Shown here: piece after piece, positions 4,114 through 47,800 of the stretch
Position numbering within the stretch: the stretch's first letter is position 1
Layout: each line of letters begins with the position of its first letter
NCBI RefSeq assembly: GCF_003003035.1
Contig: NZ_PVTS01000020.1
Location: 1-64,000, forward strand
DNA from: Marinilabilia salmonicolor
GTDB taxonomy: Bacteria > Bacteroidota > Bacteroidia > Bacteroidales > Marinilabiliaceae
DNA: 64,000 nucleotides
Direction: 5' to 3'
Notes under the pieces: model-generated
Databases searched by the model: none
The model's input: the letters and a program-made list of their open reading frames with translations, nothing else
What the model was told of the DNA's origin: nothing
Translations under genes and position numbers: made by a program

Positions 4114-4194
4114 ATGCCAAAGACTTGCCTGTTCGCTATTGATACTTACGACTGACTACCGAATTAAGATTCTTTGAAGGTACAGAATGACACA

Positions 4195-4400
4195 ATCTCT
4201 TTTTCTCAACCTCAGCCTCAATCAGAGTCCGATAAAGCTAAGTCTGAGGTTAAGGTTAAGGGAAGTTTTCTTATTTTAGTATTCTTTCCCTCTCAGTTTA
4301 AGTCTGATAAGAAAGTAACAAAGGATGAATTAATAAATCTGTTCCGCTCAACCTCAGCCTTAACCTCAATCTCAACCTTTCACCTCAATTTTCTCCCCCA
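4195..4400. repeat. Family G repeat tracts upstream of ileS
   Basis: Alternating CTCAACCTCAGCCTCAATC and TCTGAGGTTAAGGTTAAGGG tracts form inverted pairs (4198-4220 against 4245-4262). A third block at 4347-4395 contains CCTCAGCCTTAACCTCAATC. The block sits immediately before the ileS promoter. Confidence 0.6.
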
Positions 4401-9151: not shown

Positions 9152-9342
9152 ATAAAAAACAAAAAGCAATGATGCTTGGTGCTATATTTTATGCGTGATA
9201 CGACACTTAGGCCGGAAATTTTGGCTTTTGCGGGCGGATAGGTTTAAACGGACTAGATTTTTTTGTTTCTTTTTGGAGCAATGCCAAAAAGAAAATCAAT
9301 AAAGAGGTTAAAGTTGGTCTGCTGACTTTTTCAGCAGCTCCT
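9152..9342 (+). repeat. Family A repeat, copy 1 (right part)
   Basis: Shares GGCCGGAAATTTTGG, GGCGGATAGGTTTAAACGGA, the hairpin TTTCTTTTTGG/CCAAAAAGAAA and the hairpin CTGCTGACTTTTTCAGCAG with the other copies. Left of GGCCGG it carries GATACGACACT and AATGCTTGGTGC, found elsewhere only in copy 2. It ends about 50 bases before lspA. The spacer 8942-9151 holds nothing else I can recognise. Confidence 0.8.
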
Positions 9343-10685: not shown

Positions 10686-13091
10686 ATGCGTAAACTTCTC
10701 TTATTCCTACTGATGGGACTGCTTTTGGGGGGAAGCCTCAGTAGTTCTGCCCAGGAAAATATCAATCCAAGGGAAATTAAAATTTCAGAACTTTCCGATA
10801 ATCAGATTCGAAGGATTCATGATGAGATGATGAACCGGGGCCTCTCGGAACAACAGGCCATTTCGCTGGCCATGGCCCGCGGCTTCACTCGTCAGCAAAT
10901 CAATGAATTACAACGGCGCTTTGAACAACTCGGGAGTACGACTCAATCTTCAGGCGGAAAGGAGCAAATGGTTTCTGATTCATTGTTTTGGGGTGAGACT
11001 TCCAAGAAAGAGGAGATTGAAAAAACTGCCGAAAGGAAGAAGTTGTTTGGTTTTGACTTCTTTAATTCAGAGCATCTGACTTTCGAGCCAAGTGTAAATT
11101 TGCCTGCATCCAAATCATATATCATCGGGCCCGGAGATGAGTTCTCCATTGATATCTGGGGTACCTCTCAGCAGAGCTATCAGCTTTCTGTTGACAACGG
11201 AGGGAACTTGAATATACCCAATGTCGGGCCAGTTTCGGTTGGATCCCTTACGCTTGAGGAGGCAGAAAAGAAGATTTTTAATAAGCTGACATTGATATAC
11301 CGCGATCTGGCCGAAGAGAATCCGCAGACATTTGCGCACATCTATCTGGCACAGATTCGCCCCATCAAAGTTCATGTGATTGGAGAAGCTTTTGCTCCGG
11401 GTAGTTATACCCTGCCGGGATCTGCAACTGCTTTTAATGCACTGTACCTGGCGGGTGGCCCCAATATGAATGGTAGTTTCCGTGAAATTAAAATCATCCG
11501 CGAAGGGCGACAAGTAAAGACCCTCGATGTTTATGAATATCTCATCAGCGGGAAAACGGATGACAATATTTCTCTGCGTGATGACGATGTCATCATGGTG
11601 CCCTCTTACCGTTACAGAATAAGGATGAGTGGAGAGTTTAAGCGTACCGGTATTTTCGAGGGTAAGCAGGGAGAGACTGTGGCAGATATGCTGGCCTATG
11701 CCGGCGGATTTACCGATAAAGCATACCAGGAAAGGCTGGAGGTATTCAGAACTAATTCACGACAGAACTATTTTGAGGGCGTTGGTCGTGAGGATTTTGA
11801 TAATGTGTTGATTCAGAATGGAGACAGCATTATTGCAGGCGAAATTCTTAAAAGGGTCGAGAATCGTGTGATTATTGAAGGGGCGGTGATGCGTCCCGGG
11901 AACTATGAACTGACCGAAGGCTTGTCGCTGACCACCTTGCTTGAACGTGCAGAGGGATTGCGCGAGGATGCTTTCATGGAAAGAGGTCAGATATTGCGTC
12001 TGGACGATCATTTTGAGTTGCAAAATATACCATTCTCCGTGAAGGAATTGGTGGCAGGAGATTTTGATATTAACCTGAACAGAGAGGACATCGTTACCAT
12101 CTACTCCCGGGACAGCCTCCGCCAGGAGCGTAACCTTACCATCAAAGGAGAAGTGCAATACCCCGGAACATTCGATTACCGCGACGGCACCACTCTTTCC
12201 GACCTGGTAGCGATGGCCGGTGGTTTTACCGAGTCTGCTTCCAGCTCTTATATTGAAGTTGCCCGGCGCCTCAGTCATGATGAAAAAAGTGAGTACAGCA
12301 AGCGAACCGGTCATTTGTTTCAGTTCACCATTTCCCGCAATCTGGAGATGGATGAACAGGATGGTCGCTTTGAATTAAAACCATACGATCAGATATTTGT
12401 ACGTCGTGCCCCCGGATTTGTGAACTCAGGAACCGTGCGTATTAATGGGGAGGTGTTGTATGCAGGTGAATACAATCTTTCCAATCGTGAAGAGCGACTC
12501 TCGAGCGTTATTGAACGTAGCGGGGGGCTCACTCCGGATGCCTATCCACAGGGTGCCATGCTTACCCGCAAGGTAGAGACCGATGCCAAAACAAAGCGTT
12601 TACGCGACCAGTTAATGGAACGCGACAGCACCCTTCAGTTCGACGATATGGGTTTTGAAGTCCTGGCCATTGATCTGAGAACAGCCTTGGAAAATCCCGG
12701 AACCCGTGACGATGTATTTCTTCAGGCGGGAGATGAGCTGTTTATCCCCCGGGAGTTACAAACCATTAAGATCAGTGGTGAAGTGTTGAATCCTGTCAGT
12801 GCACCGTTTGTGGAGGGTAAGTCGCTCCGTCACTACGTAGATCAGGGAGGTGGATTCTCCGATATGGCAAAGAAAAGTAAGGCCTATGTGATTTATCCCA
12901 ATGGCAAGGCTGCAGCGACAACAAATTTCCTGTTTTTTAAGAATTATCCAAAAGTGCTGGCCGGAAGTGAAATAGTGATTCCTTCCAAGCCGCATCGCGA
13001 CCCGCTGCCCGCCACCGCCTGGATCAGCATCGGCAGTAGCGTGGCATCACTGGCACTTACGGTGGTGACCATTAGCAATACGTTGAAATAG
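10686..13091 (+). CDS. Wza-like polysaccharide export protein with six SLBB domains
   Basis: An 801-residue exported protein for moving a surface polysaccharide across the outer membrane. It has a signal peptide (residues 1-22, ending SSSAQ). A short helical region follows, then a Poly_export domain starting KSYIIGPGDEFSIDIWG near residue 143. Six SLBB beta-grasp repeats begin near residues 223, 311, 392, 481, 581 and 691, each with the pattern xxIxGEVxxPGxY...LxxxIxxAGGF. A hydrophobic segment (SIGSSVASLALTVVTIS) ends the protein. E. coli Wza has 379 residues and fewer SLBBs; the long form is usual in Bacteroidota. No lipobox is seen. It is the first gene of the polysaccharide locus but is separated from the Wzz gene by 2 kb of repeats. 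Confidence 0.88.
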   Translation: MRKLLLFLLMGLLLGGSLSSSAQENINPREIKISELSDNQIRRIHDEMMNRGLSEQQAISLAMARGFTRQQINELQRRFEQLGSTTQSSGGKEQMVSDSLFWGETSKKEEIEKTAERKKLFGFDFFNSEHLTFEPSVNLPASKSYIIGPGDEFSIDIWGTSQQSYQLSVDNGGNLNIPNVGPVSVGSLTLEEAEKKIFNKLTLIYRDLAEENPQTFAHIYLAQIRPIKVHVIGEAFAPGSYTLPGSATAFNALYLAGGPNMNGSFREIKIIREGRQVKTLDVYEYLISGKTDDNISLRDDDVIMVPSYRYRIRMSGEFKRTGIFEGKQGETVADMLAYAGGFTDKAYQERLEVFRTNSRQNYFEGVGREDFDNVLIQNGDSIIAGEILKRVENRVIIEGAVMRPGNYELTEGLSLTTLLERAEGLREDAFMERGQILRLDDHFELQNIPFSVKELVAGDFDINLNREDIVTIYSRDSLRQERNLTIKGEVQYPGTFDYRDGTTLSDLVAMAGGFTESASSSYIEVARRLSHDEKSEYSKRTGHLFQFTISRNLEMDEQDGRFELKPYDQIFVRRAPGFVNSGTVRINGEVLYAGEYNLSNREERLSSVIERSGGLTPDAYPQGAMLTRKVETDAKTKRLRDQLMERDSTLQFDDMGFEVLAIDLRTALENPGTRDDVFLQAGDELFIPRELQTIKISGEVLNPVSAPFVEGKSLRHYVDQGGGFSDMAKKSKAYVIYPNGKAAATTNFLFFKNYPKVLAGSEIVIPSKPHRDPLPATAWISIGSSVASLALTVVTISNTLK

Positions 13092-13120
13092 GGCCCCCTA
13101 AATCCCCCCCAAGGGGGACT
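13092..13120. repeat. Family B GC-rich palindrome
   Basis: GCCCCCTAAATCCCCCCCAA followed by GGGGGACT, directly at the 3' end of the export gene. It may act as a transcription barrier. Shorter relatives (CCCCCTGA...AGGGGG) lie at 13246-13266 and 14729-14742. Confidence 0.65.
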
Positions 13121-13257
13121 TTGAGATTAGCTGGTAGCTATTAGTTATTAGGGGGTTAGGCGAGTAGGCAAGTAGAGGTAATAAACTGAACTCAAAACCC
13201 GAAACGCAGAATTCATGCCTCAACTCTGAACCACCTACCCGCTACCCCCTGACCCCC

Positions 13258-13625
13258 TGAAGGGGGAACCGGAACGCGCAAAACGTTCAACTTGTAATTT
13301 TTAATAATGAAACCGTTTTCAAGCTTGAATGCACCCCCGACCTTGGCAGATAAGCCTAAAAACAAGGTTCTTTGATCGAAAAATCGTCTCTGTTTGAATC
13401 TTGTGCGCGCAGCAAACGAGATGAGTTTTGACGATTTCGATAAAAGAACCGTAGTTTTTAGAGCGAAAGCTGGCTCAGTCTTGAAATATTGTGATAAGTG
13501 AGAGCAGTAGCCAAGCTTGCTTGGATAATGCCGAACGCAGCAATATTCATGAAATAAGTTCTTTGCCTACTTTCTTGTATCAAGACAAGAAAGTAGGTCA
13601 GGGTTTAAGGGATGAAATCTCTTTT
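13258..13625 (+). repeat. Family F composite hairpin element, copy 1
   Basis: The left part runs from GAACCGGAACGCGCAAAACG to CTTGGCAG. The middle hairpin starts at CTAAAAACAAGGTTCTTTGA (about 13356), with AATCGTC facing GACGATTTCGATAAAAGAACC and AGTTTTTAG. The right hairpin, CCTACTTTCTTG/CAAGAAAGTAGG, lies at about 13566-13597 and is followed by GGGATGAAATC. Unlike copy 2 it carries about 80 unshared bases (13485-13565). Confidence 0.7.
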
Positions 13626-13672
13626 TGAAGTAAGGAAAAAATCTTGGTTAATTAGCGATTAACAATTTAAAC

Positions 13673-14010
13673 GGCGCGTGGGCCTGTCCGCTTTCCGGGC
13701 CGGCGGATGGCGGAAAGCCAAAATGGGCGAATTTTAGGAGCCTTGCGTCAGTGTTGTTTCATGTGTAAAATAATGTATAAGTTGAAGTTGGTTTTTGATT
13801 TTTTAGTAATGAGAAAAAGTGAGCATAGCCTTAGCTACGTGAATCTTTTTATCATGAATAAAAAACAAAAATCAACAATGCTTGGTGCAATATTTTATTC
13901 GTGATACGACACTACGGCCGGAAATTTTGGTTTTCGCGAGAGGATAGGATTAAGCGGACTAGACTTTTTTGTTTCTTTTTGGGGCAATGCCAAAAAGAAA
14001 AATAAAACGA
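13673..14010 (+). repeat. Family A repeat, copy 2 (with an internal insertion)
   Basis: Carries the GGGCCTGTCCGCTTTCCGGG start, the CCAAAAT/ATTTTGG arms and the TTTCTTTTTGG/CCAAAAAGAAA hairpin. About 165 bases are inserted between CTTGCG and GGCCGGAAATTTTGG, the same junction seen in copy 1. The open frame at 13707-13904 is repeat sequence and not a gene. Confidence 0.75.
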
Positions 14011-14051
14011 AATCCCCTTTTAAGAAAATGTTTTGATCATAAGAATTTAAA

Positions 14052-14285
14052 ATGCCAACAATATATCGACAAAACGGTTATCGGTTTTTCTTCTATTCAA
14101 ATGATCATACTCCTCCTCACATTCATGTTGAAAAAGGAAGAGGTACTGCAAAATATTTATTGAATGACGCAACCCTGGTTGGGTCCCGACGTTTTAATTC
14201 TAATGAACTTGGAGAAATGAGAAAGATAGTTTTGGAAAATCTTTCTTTGTTTAATGATAAATGGGATGAGTATTTTAAAGATTAA
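14052..14285 (+). CDS. DUF4160 domain protein (putative toxin-antitoxin-like partner)
   Basis: A complete 77-residue DUF4160 protein. Diagnostic is the N-terminal block MPTIYRQNGYRFFFYSND with DHTPPHIHVEKGRGTAKY (conserved His-x-His), followed by a helical C-terminus ELGEMRKIVLENLSLFNDKW. DUF4160 genes are regularly paired with DUF2442 genes, as here, with a 20-base overlap, and the pair has been proposed to be toxin-antitoxin-like. The activity is not established and no nuclease motif is visible. The pair sits between repeat elements, as expected of a mobile accessory module. Confidence 0.8.
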   Translation: MPTIYRQNGYRFFFYSNDHTPPHIHVEKGRGTAKYLLNDATLVGSRRFNSNELGEMRKIVLENLSLFNDKWDEYFKD

Positions 14286-14499
14286 AAAATCTACCAATGC
14301 AGTTAATCTGTGGTTCGATGACCAAAAACTGCATTTGGTTCTCGAAGATGGACGCGAGGTAAGTGTACCATTGGAATGGTTCCCTTTACTGAGAGATGCT
14401 TCTTCCAAACAATTAAACAACTGGCGTTTTATTGGAGACGGGGAAGGAATTCATTGGGAGGATCTTGATGAGGATTTGTTGGTTGAAGCACTTTTGTGA
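14266..14499 (+). CDS. DUF2442 domain protein
   Basis: A 77-residue protein with the DUF2442 core: LWFDDQKLHLVLEDGREVSV, then PLEWFPLLRDAS and IHWEDLDEDLLVEALL. I chose the ATG before SILKIKKS. An ATG 12 bases upstream would lengthen the overlap with the DUF4160 gene from 20 to 32 bases. Translational coupling with that gene is likely. In other genomes DUF2442 proteins are suspected antitoxins or regulators; the role here is inferred only from the pairing. Confidence 0.8.
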   Translation: MSILKIKKSTNAVNLWFDDQKLHLVLEDGREVSVPLEWFPLLRDASSKQLNNWRFIGDGEGIHWEDLDEDLLVEALL

Positions 14500-14576
14500 A
14501 GAAGAAATCAAAACTCAGCATCCTGAGCGCTACCCCTTATGAAGTATAATCTTCATAGGGTAAACCTGAGCCTTTC

Positions 14577-14675
14577 AATGGGGAACTGCCAACGCGCATT
14601 GCACAGAACCGGTACGATAAACCCTGAAATTGTTTTCAAGCTTGAGTGTTTACCCCGCGCTTGGCAGATACAAGG
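14577..14675 (+). repeat. Family F partial copy (left part only)
   Basis: GGGGAACTGCCAACGCGC followed after about 45 bases by TTTTCAAGCTTGAGTG and CGCGCTTGGCAGATA. CTGCCAACGCGC pairs with GCGCTTGGCAG. It lies just before the full second copy. Confidence 0.65.
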
Positions 14676-14737
14676 CTGAAGAGTATTAAAATTTTACAGT
14701 AATGAAATGTAAATCCGCTCTCGCTCTACCCCCTGAT

Positions 14738-15035
14738 GGGGGAACTGTCAACGCGTAAAGCATTCAACTTGTAATATATATATTTGAACCCGTTTTCAAG
14801 CTTGAATGCACCCCCGACTTTGGCAGATAAGCCTAAAAACAAGGTTCTTTGATCGAAAAATCGTCTCTGTTTGAGGCTCACGGCGTAGCAAGTGAGATGA
14901 GTTTTGACGATTTCGATAAAAGAACCGTAGTTTTTAGAGCGAAAGCTGGCGAAGTCTTGACCTTTTTTTGATTACTTTTTTTGTGTCAAGACAAAAAAAG
15001 TAATTCAGGGTCTAAGGGATGAAATCCCTCAAAAA
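14738..15035 (+). repeat. Family F composite hairpin element, copy 2
   Basis: Three successive hairpins. First, CTGTCAACGCG...GCATTCAACTTG faces CAAGCTTGAATGC...GACTTTGGCAG. Second, CTAAAAAC-GGTTCTTT-GATCGAAAAATCGTC faces GACGATTTCGAT-AAAAGAACC-GTAGTTTTTAG. Third is TTACTTTTTTTG/CAAAAAAAGTAA, followed by GGGATGAAATCCC. It ends about 45 bases before the Wzz-like gene. The spacer 14500-14737 otherwise holds only the partial copy. Confidence 0.75.
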
Positions 15036-15081
15036 AGATTTGATTAAACAAAAAAGAAATCATTATCATACACCATAATTC

Positions 15082-16215
15082 ATGGAACAAACCACCAAAG
15101 AAAATTCTGTGAACAAAACAGAACGCCCAATCATCAAAGACGACGAAATAGACCTCATAGCCCTGGCCCACACCATCTGGGATAACCGCAAAACCATCTG
15201 GTATTCCATAGCCGTTGCAGTTGTTATTGGCTTAATGGTTGCCATATTTAGCCCCGTAAAATACACTGCCTCAGCAACAATCCTTCCTCAGGCAGAAGGC
15301 AAAACCGACCTGGGAGGCCTCGGCGGACTGGCAAGTATGGCCGGCATTAACCTGGGCTCTATGATGGGAAGCGCTTCAGGCATTCAGCCCGATTTGTATC
15401 CCAAAGTAATCAACAGTTATCCGTTCCTCAACGAACTGGTACACCAGCCGTTTAACTTTGAAGAGGAAGAAACTCCGAAGTCCATTTATGAGCAACGAAT
15501 GCAGGATTCTATTCCCGGGTTTGGGGCCACTTTGATGAAATATACTCTTCGTCTGCCCTGGACCATCAAGAATGCCTTGATGGGAGAGGACAAGAAAATT
15601 TCTGCTGGAGTACCCGGTCAATCTGCCATAGATGTCACAAGACTTTCGGAAGAGGAGACCGAAATATTAAAATCAATGACTGAAGTTGTTACTGTTTCTG
15701 TGGACAATGAAACAGGCCTGGTGACCATTGGTGCTGAGTTGGGAGAACCACTGCTGACAGCTCAGGTAACGCAAAAGACGGTGGAACTACTTCAAAAATA
15801 CATCATCGAATACAAAACCCGACAGGCAACGCAGAATCTTGAGTTTATTGAAGCTCGCCTCAAAGAAAAAAAGGCAGAATTCGAAACAGCCCGTGAAGCC
15901 TTTTTTGAATATCGCGATCGCAACCGAAACATCATTGAGGAACGTACCAATATCCGCTATCAGGAGTTGAGTGATTCCTACAACCTGGCTTCGGAGGTTT
16001 ATCAGAGTCTGGCGGAACAAAAGGAGCAGGCAGAGATTGCCGTGAAGAAAGATACTCCTGCTTTTTCTGTTATTGAACCGGTTAAGGTGCCTATTGAGAA
16101 GTCGGCTCCTAGGCGGACTCTTATTTTGATAATAAGCATTTTTCTTGGGGGATTTATTGGGATTGGATTGATTTTTGGAAGAATGGTTTGGAGTAAGATG
16201 AGGAATGCATGGTAG
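15082..16215 (+). CDS. Wzz/GumC-type polysaccharide chain-length determinant
   Basis: A 377-residue inner membrane protein with the polysaccharide co-polymerase layout. A short cytoplasmic N-terminus (DEIDLIALAHTIWDNRKTIW) leads into the first helix (SIAVAVVIGLMVAIF, residues 36-52). Then come KYTASATILPQ (Wzz motif), a long periplasmic region with coiled coil (NLEFIEARLKEKKAEFETAR), the proline-rich VIEPVKVPIEKSAPRR, and a second helix (LILIISIFLGGFIGIGLIF). No tyrosine kinase domain is fused. It is followed after 50 bases by the nonulosonic acid genes and probably sets the chain length of the polymer they decorate. Confidence 0.87.
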   Translation: MEQTTKENSVNKTERPIIKDDEIDLIALAHTIWDNRKTIWYSIAVAVVIGLMVAIFSPVKYTASATILPQAEGKTDLGGLGGLASMAGINLGSMMGSASGIQPDLYPKVINSYPFLNELVHQPFNFEEEETPKSIYEQRMQDSIPGFGATLMKYTLRLPWTIKNALMGEDKKISAGVPGQSAIDVTRLSEEETEILKSMTEVVTVSVDNETGLVTIGAELGEPLLTAQVTQKTVELLQKYIIEYKTRQATQNLEFIEARLKEKKAEFETAREAFFEYRDRNRNIIEERTNIRYQELSDSYNLASEVYQSLAEQKEQAEIAVKKDTPAFSVIEPVKVPIEKSAPRRTLILIISIFLGGFIGIGLIFGRMVWSKMRNAW

Positions 16216-37408: not shown

Positions 37409-37726
37409 GGTTTTTCAAGTAAATCTTTTAAAAAGTTTGCATCTGTGGTGATTAATAGTCAAAATATCACTGTTCAAAATATTTTTCTAGGTTAAGCGAT
37501 TTTTTCTATTTAAAAGGCGCGGGGGCCTGTCCGTTTTCCGGGCCGGCGGATAGCGGGAAGCCAAAATGGGCGACTTTCAAGGCCTTGCGCAATGGCCGGA
37601 AATTTTGGATTTCGCGGGCGGATAGGTTTAAACGGACTAGATTTTTTTGTTTCTTTTTGGAGCAATGCCAAAAAGAAAATCTATAAAGAAATTAAAAAAT
37701 GGTCTGCTGTCTTTTTCAGCAGTCCC
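37409..37726 (+). repeat. Family A repeat, copy 3 (long form)
   Basis: Includes the AT-rich left part shared with copies 5 and 7 (AAGTTTGCA...GGTGATTAATAGTCAAAA) and the core from 37516. Arms CCAAAAT (37561-37567) and ATTTTGG (37602-37608) pair inside outer arms GTCCGTTTT/AAACGGAC. The two right-hand hairpins follow. Open frames through it are repeat-derived. Confidence 0.85.
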
Positions 37727-40415: not shown

Positions 40416-40592
40416 TAGTGCCCGTCTATAAAGTCGGGATAGTTTCTGGCTGGAGCTGTGTCTGTTCAGAAAGTGACAGTTACAAGGCTTGCGAAGTCCG
40501 AAAATACGGAGTTTACTTTTCGTAAATGAGTACTTTTCGGACAAGCGTAACGCAGTAAATGGTACTTTATGGACAGACACTATATAGGGAAT
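40416..40592 (+). repeat. Family D element (MITE-like), copy 1
   Basis: Terminal inverted repeats ATATAGTGCCCGTCTATAAA on the left against the complement of TTTATGGACAGACACTATAT on the right. Inner arms: GTTAC...GTCCGAAAA (40496-40504) against TTTTCGGAC (40534-40542)...GTAAC, with TACGGAGTTTAC/GTAAATGAGTA at the tip. The whole element can fold into one long hairpin. It ends about 48 bases before the glycosylphosphotransferase start. Confidence 0.78.
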
Positions 40593-42111: not shown

Positions 42112-42449
42112 AGAGTCTGTCCCTAAGCTAAGCGTTTTTCAAGTAAATCATTCAAAAAGTTTGCAGTGTTGGTGATTAATAGTCAAAAGATTACTGTTAA
42201 AAAGATTTTGCTCGGTTAAACGACTTTTCCTGGTTAAGAGGTGCGGTGGCCTGTCCGTTTTCCGGGCCGGCGGATAGCGGGAAGGCTTAATGGGCGACAT
42301 TAAGGCCTTGTGGGCCAGCTGGAAATTAAGCCTGATGTGGGCGGATAGGTTTAAACGGACTATATTTTTTTGTTTCTTTTTGGAGCAATGCCAAAAAGAA
42401 AATAAATAAAGAAATTAAAATTGGTCTGCTGAATTTTTCAGCTGCCCCC
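42112..42449 (+). repeat. Family A repeat, copy 5 (long form), preceded by a family D end
   Basis: TAGAGTCTGTCCCTAAG at 42112 resembles a family D terminus. The family A long form starts near 42130 and its core at 42239. Arms GGCTTAAT (42284-42291) and ATTAAGCC (42325-42332) replace the CCAAAAT/ATTTTGG arms of copies 3 and 7. It ends about 58 bases before wecB. Confidence 0.82.
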
Positions 42450-43712: not shown

Positions 43713-44017
43713 CGTGATCAAAATAAGTGTTTAACAGGCTTGCCAGGGACTGACCTTGGCAATTAAACATATCCTCTTGTGATATAAATGCTTAAGAAAT
43801 AACTTGTCCGTTTCATTACGAAAACTTATGAATAAACCAGGTTAGAACTACCGATTTGTTCTAAATTTGCAACATTGATGGATCGAATATGGCGATAAAT
43901 GCATCAAAATAATATGCTTAAGTTCTCTAAATAGGATCTGCTGAAAAATACTTAAAAAAATAATATTTAGTTGTTTAAAGGAATGTTATTATAGTGAAGG
44001 ACTGTTACTATTTGAAG

Positions 44018-44227
44018 GGCGGGGAGGCCCGTCCGTTTTCCGGGCCGGCGGTTGGAGAGAAGGCTTAATGAGCGACTTCAAGGCTTTGCGGGCCAGCCGG
44101 AAATTAAGCCTGATGCGGACGGATAGGTTTAAACGGACTAGACTTTTTTGTTTCTTTTTGGGGTAATGCTAAAAAGAAAATCAATTAAGAAATAAATATA
44201 GGGCTGCTGATTTTTTCAGTAGCCTCT
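44018..44227 (+). repeat. Family A repeat, copy 6
   Basis: Core with arms GGCTTAAT (44062-44069) and ATTAAGCC (44103-44110), the same variant as copy 5. The hairpin GCTGCTGATTTTTTCAGTAG ends it, 13 bases before the DUF4296 gene, so it would lie in the 5' leader of that gene. Confidence 0.85.
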
Positions 44228-47467: not shown

Positions 47468-47800
47468 TGCAAGGTTTTCAAGCTAATCACTAAAATAAGT
47501 TTGCAATTAAGAAGACTTAAGACGGTAATTATTAACAACTTACCAGTCAAAAGAATGTTTTTTGTTTGAATGAGTTTTACTGGTTGAAAGGGGGGCGGGC
47601 CTGTCCGTTTTCCGGGCCGGCGGATAGCGGGAAGCCAAAATGGGCGATTTTCAAGGCCTTGCGCAATGGCCGGAAATTTTGGATTTTGCGGGCGGCTAGG
47701 TTTAAACGGACTAGATTTTTTTGTTTCTTTTTGGAGCAATGCCAAAAAGAAAATCAATAAAGAAATTAAAATTGGTCCGCTGACTTTTTTAGCAGCCCCT
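47468..47800 (+). repeat. Family A repeat, copy 7 (long form)
   Basis: AT-rich left part with AAGTTTGCA and AGTCAAAAGAAT, core from 47590 with arms CCAAAAT (47635-47641) and ATTTTGG (47676-47682), then both right hairpins. It ends about 128 bases before waaA. Nothing else is recognisable in the spacer 47341-47467. Confidence 0.85.

Follow-up and report, generated by a model that had tools for sequence, protein, structure and literature searches.

The usual view of small mobile repeats that carry no genes is that only their ends are conserved. The BOX element is made up of boxA, boxB and boxC sequence modules, and REP/BIME elements with RAYT are hairpins of 20-40 nt that flank the gene for a Y1 transposase. 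As PMC3049150 presents the BOX elements of Streptococcus pneumoniae in the part used here, they are dispersed and intergenic, have conserved end modules, interchangeable inner modules and a predicted RNA fold, and are called a non-autonomous mobile element. The part of PMC12306157 used here treats short palindromes of 10-71 nt.

The window analyzed in this work is a 64,000-nucleotide stretch (G000:C20:1-64000) of the genome of Marinilabilia salmonicolor, designated G000. It contains two full copies of a repeat family, F, at about 13258-13625 and 14728-15029, and a partial copy at 14580-14670. The copies bracket a DUF4160/DUF2442 (dhiTA-type) gene pair amid polysaccharide-export genes, the nearest of which encode an SLBB/Poly_export protein (10686-13091) and a Wzz protein (15082-16215). 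The F elements of the window contain short ORFs only, and about 50 nt separate the end of copy 2 from the Wzz gene, which lies on the same strand. The DUF4160/DUF2442 pair is not represented among the PADLOC models. The parts of the locus are as follows.

13239..13338 (+): left unit of copy 1, with CCCCCTGAAGGGGG hairpin and TTCAAGCTTGAA palindrome; other left ends occur elsewhere in the genome
13339..13484 (+): F core of copy 1, with GACCTTGGCAGATAAGCC, the long stem, GTTTTTAGAGCGAAAGCTGGC, and CTTGA at 13480-13484
13485..13557 (+): optional hairpin module C, not present in copy 2 and subject to gain or loss at an orthologous copy at another site
13559..13625 (+): 3' domain of copy 1, with a hairpin at 13566-13597 (loop ATCAAG, 13579-13584), then a hairpin at 13608-13622
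13660..14013 (+): repeat of family X, a separate modular family, between F copy 1 and the TA pair
14010..14040 (+): F-like right-end remnant AAATCCCCTTTTAAGAAAATGTTTTG, directly before DUF4160, resembling the end of the minimal F of G003
14052..14285 (+): DUF4160 protein (PF13711), as in dhiTA pairs
14254..14499 (+): DUF2442 protein (PF10387), as in dhiTA pairs
14580..14670 (+): partial F copy, consisting of the left unit and the first GGCAGATA only
14728..14811 (+): left unit of copy 2
14812..14960 (+): F core of copy 2, with CTTGAC at 14956-14961
14964..15029 (+): 3' domain of copy 2, with a hairpin at 14971-15004 (loop GTCAAG, 14985-14990), then AGGGATGAAATCCCT

A preliminary description of this locus had placed two full copies and one partial copy of F around the DUF4160/DUF2442 pair, an arrangement confirmed by direct repeats between the full copies (13273-13397/14750-14874, 91%; 13407-13484/14883-14960, 94%) and by a third left piece at 14625-14670. 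The long middle stem pairs as described there. The three hairpins that it counted are real, but the number is higher, since there are a left unit, a long stem, the optional hairpin at 13485-13557, a right hairpin and a short AGGGAT-GAA-ATCYCT hairpin. The right stem, reported to differ completely between copies while staying complementary, does stay complementary on different arms, at 13 of 13 positions in copy 1 (13566-13578/13585-13597) and 14 of 14 in copy 2 (14971-14984/14991-15004); "completely" overstates a difference at few positions.

Family X is found also at window 9152-9295, 37508-37692, 42234-42415, 44007-44180 and 47584-47766. It is represented by 76 pieces in G000, has two core modules (query 21-108 and 277-374), and may carry an inner palindromic insertion ending AGTGTTGTTTCATG / CGTGATACGACACT. 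A further repeat family, ending TATGGACAGACACTA, occurs at window 40494-40582, 43614, 49506, 53137 and 55863; one copy of it adjoins a Y1 transposase gene (L056) and another a DDE transposase in Labilibacter (L174).

The body of F, about 210-290 nt, consists in order of the core, the optional hairpin C, the 3' hairpin and AGGGATGAAATCCCT, where the core comprises GACCTTGGCAGRTAAGCC, a long stem that bears TGTTTGAG...GAGTTT close to the tip, and GTTTTTAGAGCGAAAGCTGGC. Among copies, the arms of the 3' hairpin take alternative forms: CCTAC..., GATTAC..., CCCGAAATA..., or a 51-nt insertion in one arm. The core stem is missing from some copies (C13), and others (C1:166401, C2:84313) start inside or after it. 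Copies of the own genus with intact ends start near AAACCTGTCCAAAATA and end in TTTAGGACACTATTG; Labilibacter-type copies have GAATCAAGGGTTGAA inverted repeats at their ends instead. At the filled site G000:C2:156840-157190 and its ortholog in the sister genome G003, a 74-bp C module is present in G003 and absent from G000, so a copy can gain or lose a hairpin as a whole. Hairpin modules of F are gained, lost and exchanged.

The family extends far beyond the window. The sequence of copy 1 matches 54 pieces in its own genome, where a covariance model built from 23 copies finds 26 matches; in the window the model gives ten matches at E<=1, two of them the full copies and the rest weak or antisense. 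An F match was found in 28 of 100 related genomes, the own genome included, and full-length copies in other genera show 73-78% identity. In a sample of the phylum, 8 of 148 genomes, again counting the own genome, have a covariance-model match, and two of these lie outside the class. A 22-base pattern from the 3' domain matched 86 stretches of named genomes; the 80 matches listed are mainly from Labilibacter, Saccharicrinis, Ancylomarina, Marinifilum, Carboxylicivirga, Plebeiobacterium, Massilibacteroides and Paludibacter. The plasmids, phages and viral contigs searched gave no F match.

Copies of F are intergenic and lie between unrelated genes. Some form series, as on contig C27 of G000 and in two of the matched distant genomes, where F-like units are closely spaced and in one case tandem with a 333-bp period; the gene content of these two genomes looks like that of Chryseobacterium relatives. 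On C27 (L031 4100-11040), F and X copies stand in a single orientation around small helix-turn-helix genes, and one F hairpin is split by an insertion whose ends are TCCGGTAAAA and which has an 8-bp repeat, CAATAGTG. The F-like series of the two distant genomes, at L309 13933-15119, L316 7368-8545 and L308 13089-13919, are each unidirectional and lie between ordinary genes.

The interior of F is strongly constrained as a fold across genera, and in a weaker form across the phylum. The folds of window copies 1 and 2 are much stronger than those of dinucleotide shuffles (z -6.2 for copy 1, -6.9 for copy 2). RNAalifold, applied to 23 full copies, predicted 62 pairs, 27 of them with changes on both sides. 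Removing five doubtful pairs and adding a loop helix gave a set of 63 pairs, of which 28 show changes on both sides; none of 500 shuffles reached the observed value by any measure, and 97.1% of cells are paired, compared to 87.1% in shuffled alignments and 38-49% with partners slid. The loop helix joins an upstream CTTGAY to the six-base loop RTCAAG of the 3' hairpin; in copy 2 of the window, for example, the loop GTCAAG covaries with CTTGAC. It is paired in 57 of 59 distinct sequences, with T-A in 48, C-G in seven, A-T in one and T-G in one at the variable position and mismatches in two, a value reached by none of 20000 permutations. Among 25 matches in distant genomes, 23 are readable and 22 of these are complementary (T-A 12, A-T 9, C-G 1), the exception being an A-A mismatch.

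The 71 right-domain sequences were selected for having the hairpin, which biases counts for the D1 stem, and three of them (L188, L212, L230) were dropped before alignment A1 was made. In a check free of this selection, 71 of 85 pattern matches have ATCAAG or ATTAAG within the next 30 nt, where shuffled sequences give a mean of 3.0 and a maximum of 10; several of the remaining 14 look like chance matches. Because the loop is wholly paired and leaves no spare bases, we infer that the loop helix is an alternative to the hairpin, or a partly opened form of it, rather than a simple pseudoknot. Covarying pairs across lineages, the mark of a structured-RNA class, are present in F, and the covariance models of Rfam 15 match neither F nor the distant relatives scanned. 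The structural constraint that the preliminary description had suggested is thus strongly supported, both by the pairs changed on both sides and by the covariation of the loop helix, distant genomes included.

Core stems contain 48 G-U cells versus two A-C cells, or 21 versus two pairs, a count that rests on pairs predicted with RNA energies on the plus strand; for pairs found on both strands it is 19 versus 5. In the 3' hairpins the asymmetry is weak (6 versus 5 in alignment A2, 43 versus 22 in A1). The G-U excess is suggestive, since plus-strand RNA or single-stranded DNA would be expected to show it. The plus strand also folds better than the minus strand in 23 of 23 copies. This advantage was rejected as proof of RNA, as dinucleotide composition explains most of it (mean z -1.0 in the composition control). 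Orientation of F relative to the upstream gene is the same at 38 loci and opposite at 24 (p=0.098, a weak bias), with eight loci judged to be chance matches left out.

Evidence for mobility comes from comparison of sister genomes. At G000:C2:156840-157190 (L043), an F copy is bracketed by two GTTGTGTAAC repeats, a 10-bp target duplication. The site is filled by the same copy in G003, while in G004 and G002 one related target sequence runs uninterrupted; G001 is without F in this comparison. At a second locus, G003:C138, F is absent from G004, G000 and G002, and divergence of the flanks obscures the junction there. The Labilibacter-type 15-mer TIR has 14 matches, versus none for the reversed control, and forms five distinct inverted pairs 282-327 bp apart, four of which show direct repeats of 7-10 bp at their ends when read by eye. 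In the own genus the ends are a short, imperfect TGTCC. An automated search of 37 copies placed the best direct repeat at the expected register in nine, of which two, L123 and L125, look like one orthologous insertion. Single repeats of such length are not rare in AT-rich DNA, so the argument for mobility is carried by the shared register and the empty site. For the F copies of the window, no target duplication and no canonical ends or TIR were found. Given the insertion with duplication at L043 and the TIRs of related copies, F moves like a MITE.

Candidates for an autonomous partner were examined and rejected. The right-end pattern has 16 matches in the own genome, four of them outside F, which is at the level of the reversed control (eight). 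For PF01609 transposases, 29 loci in five genomes were scanned, with single motif matches in six and no matching TIR pair. In Labilibacter, the one TIR pattern examined gave no pair 1-3 kb apart.

F is probably a non-autonomous, MITE-like mobile element of Bacteroidota with a conserved modular fold as its interior; with similar assurance we read it as a phylum-wide, BOX-like, non-autonomous mobile element in which an RNA-like fold is conserved. A DDE-type transposase supplied in trans would move F by way of its ends. Once transcribed from neighboring operons, the interior would act as plus-strand RNA, a self-folding segment that may make the insertion tolerable through attenuation, processing or shielding; alternatively, the interior could be a structure needed for mobility itself. 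The window would then hold two degenerate, probably immobile copies in an exopolysaccharide operon, bracketing a TA-exchange hotspot.

It is possible, but on balance unlikely, that F is a selfish element that depends for its spread on its conserved RNA, which might, for instance, bind a host protein or a transposase. So read, and with the same low expectation, F would have a long closed domain and a 3' hairpin, the loop of which would be paired to an upstream strand in a pseudoknot or a two-state switch. Were this true, there would be a phylum-wide class of RNA-dependent, TIR-bounded mobile elements whose hairpin modules recombine between copies.

Less likely again is a family of structured non-coding RNA genes, trans-acting or cis-regulatory, that has merely been multiplied, with mobility secondary. 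The phylum-wide fold of F with covariation and the predominance of G-U over A-C in the core stems would suit such a family; the gene neighborhoods of F, however, are unrelated and its orientation mixed, presence or absence comes with a target duplication, ends differ between genera, and F copies have no promoter-like site above chance.

The preliminary description had also likened the arrangement to a composite transposon-like cassette, in which two F copies would serve as ends and carry the DUF4160/DUF2442 pair between sites. The copies do stand in direct orientation on either side of the pair. The interval between the SLBB and Wzz genes varies in length: 1990 bp (G000), 1854 bp (G004) and 4497 bp (G003) (slot coordinates: L111 5555-7410; L112 6918-11434; L086/L113; window 13092-15081). 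In G004 it holds a left unit, the first 59 bases of the F core, X, an NTase (PF18765/PF01909), a HepT-like protein (PF01934), and then again a left unit, the start of the F core and X, so that two truncated F copies enclose a different TA pair at this locus. In G003 it starts with a left unit, a minimal F and DUF4160/DUF2442 (93% DNA identity), followed by an NTase, a HEPN gene, a PIN-like gene (below the Pfam cut-off), a left unit that lacks the F body, and a 23S_rRNA_IVP-type gene. In G001 the slot is occupied by a nucleotidyltransferase/HEPN-like pair, as read from the sequence, with no F match. G003 thus has the DUF pair in place, its left F gutted and the F body absent on the right, which largely matches what the preliminary description named as its refutation, conservation of the pair at this locus without F copies. 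No transposase lies in or between the copies, where a composite transposon has two transposase-bearing insertion sequences. Elsewhere F copies lie amid unrelated genes, and no gene family recurs within 2.5 kb of the other copies in the own genome, except pseudo-ORFs of the repeats and a few unrelated paralog pairs. A cassette is therefore very improbable, and that part of the preliminary description does not hold.

Across sister species the SLBB-Wzz gap is a slot for TA exchange (DUF4160/DUF2442, NTase/HepT, NTase/HEPN plus PIN) in a polysaccharide operon. In G003 a long run of CTCAACCTCAGCC / GGTTAAGGCTAAG-type repeats (L112 6980-8660) adjoins the TA genes, with similar sequence at window 4185-4397 and 1448-1492. 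Since F or its remnants are shared by the slot in G000, G003 and G004, they were probably at the locus before these split, while the gene content between them changes. The locus is consistent with a repeat-bearing hotspot and not with a unit that moves as a whole, and the repeats may aid recombination there.

Finally, F might consist of single-stranded DNA hairpins of the REP/BIME type, mobilized on one strand by a Y1 (IS200/RAYT) transposase. This would suit the hairpins, the one-strand G-T/A-C asymmetry, the strong folds under DNA parameters (z -7.7 and -5.7) and the ten Y1 matches in the own genome, but is a most improbable explanation, as no F copy lies within 1.5 kb of any of these ten, the F body is about 210-290 nt rather than 20-40, and F has target duplications and TIRs, neither of which Y1 enzymes are known to make.

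What F offers is an interior fold kept by compensatory changes while ends and hairpin modules vary, and with this the question of why such elements fold becomes testable. Its presence in surface-polysaccharide operons beside a TA-exchange slot means that it may affect expression and recombination there.

No description of the F element was found in the open-access literature searched, and in PMC2267715 none of four Bacteroidota/Chlorobi genus names occurs. Flavo-1 and GUCCY-hairpin are, in the parts of PMC2864571 and PMC9723704 used here, computed structured RNA motifs of Bacteroidetes, the phylum of F, and matches to Flavo-1 lie in either orientation to transcripts; F itself has no Rfam match, and GUCCY-hairpin stands without an Rfam accession in the table of PMC2864571. 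Like F, the Porphyromonas gingivalis MITEs BrickBuilt and MITE239/464/700 are gene-less, with TIRs, target duplications and strong hairpins, as far as the text of PMC4596501 used here describes them. In contrast to F, BrickBuilt has a 23-nt minisatellite as its interior, TIRs matching the IS5 family and short, variable TSDs, and the TIRs printed in that part of PMC4596501 differ from those of F. The likeness to BOX elements, on the account in the part of PMC3049150 used here, is one of modular, intergenic, folded, non-autonomous design only; unlike BOX, F combines a phylum-wide fold with a helix between a loop and an upstream strand, and one repeat family of that account is without an empty site comparable to the one, with target duplication, of F. 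On these partial accounts, F is closest to BOX elements by design and to Bacteroidota MITEs by habit (PMC3049150; PMC4596501). We file it among modular non-autonomous mobile repeats, where its distinction is a fold conserved by covariation across a phylum.
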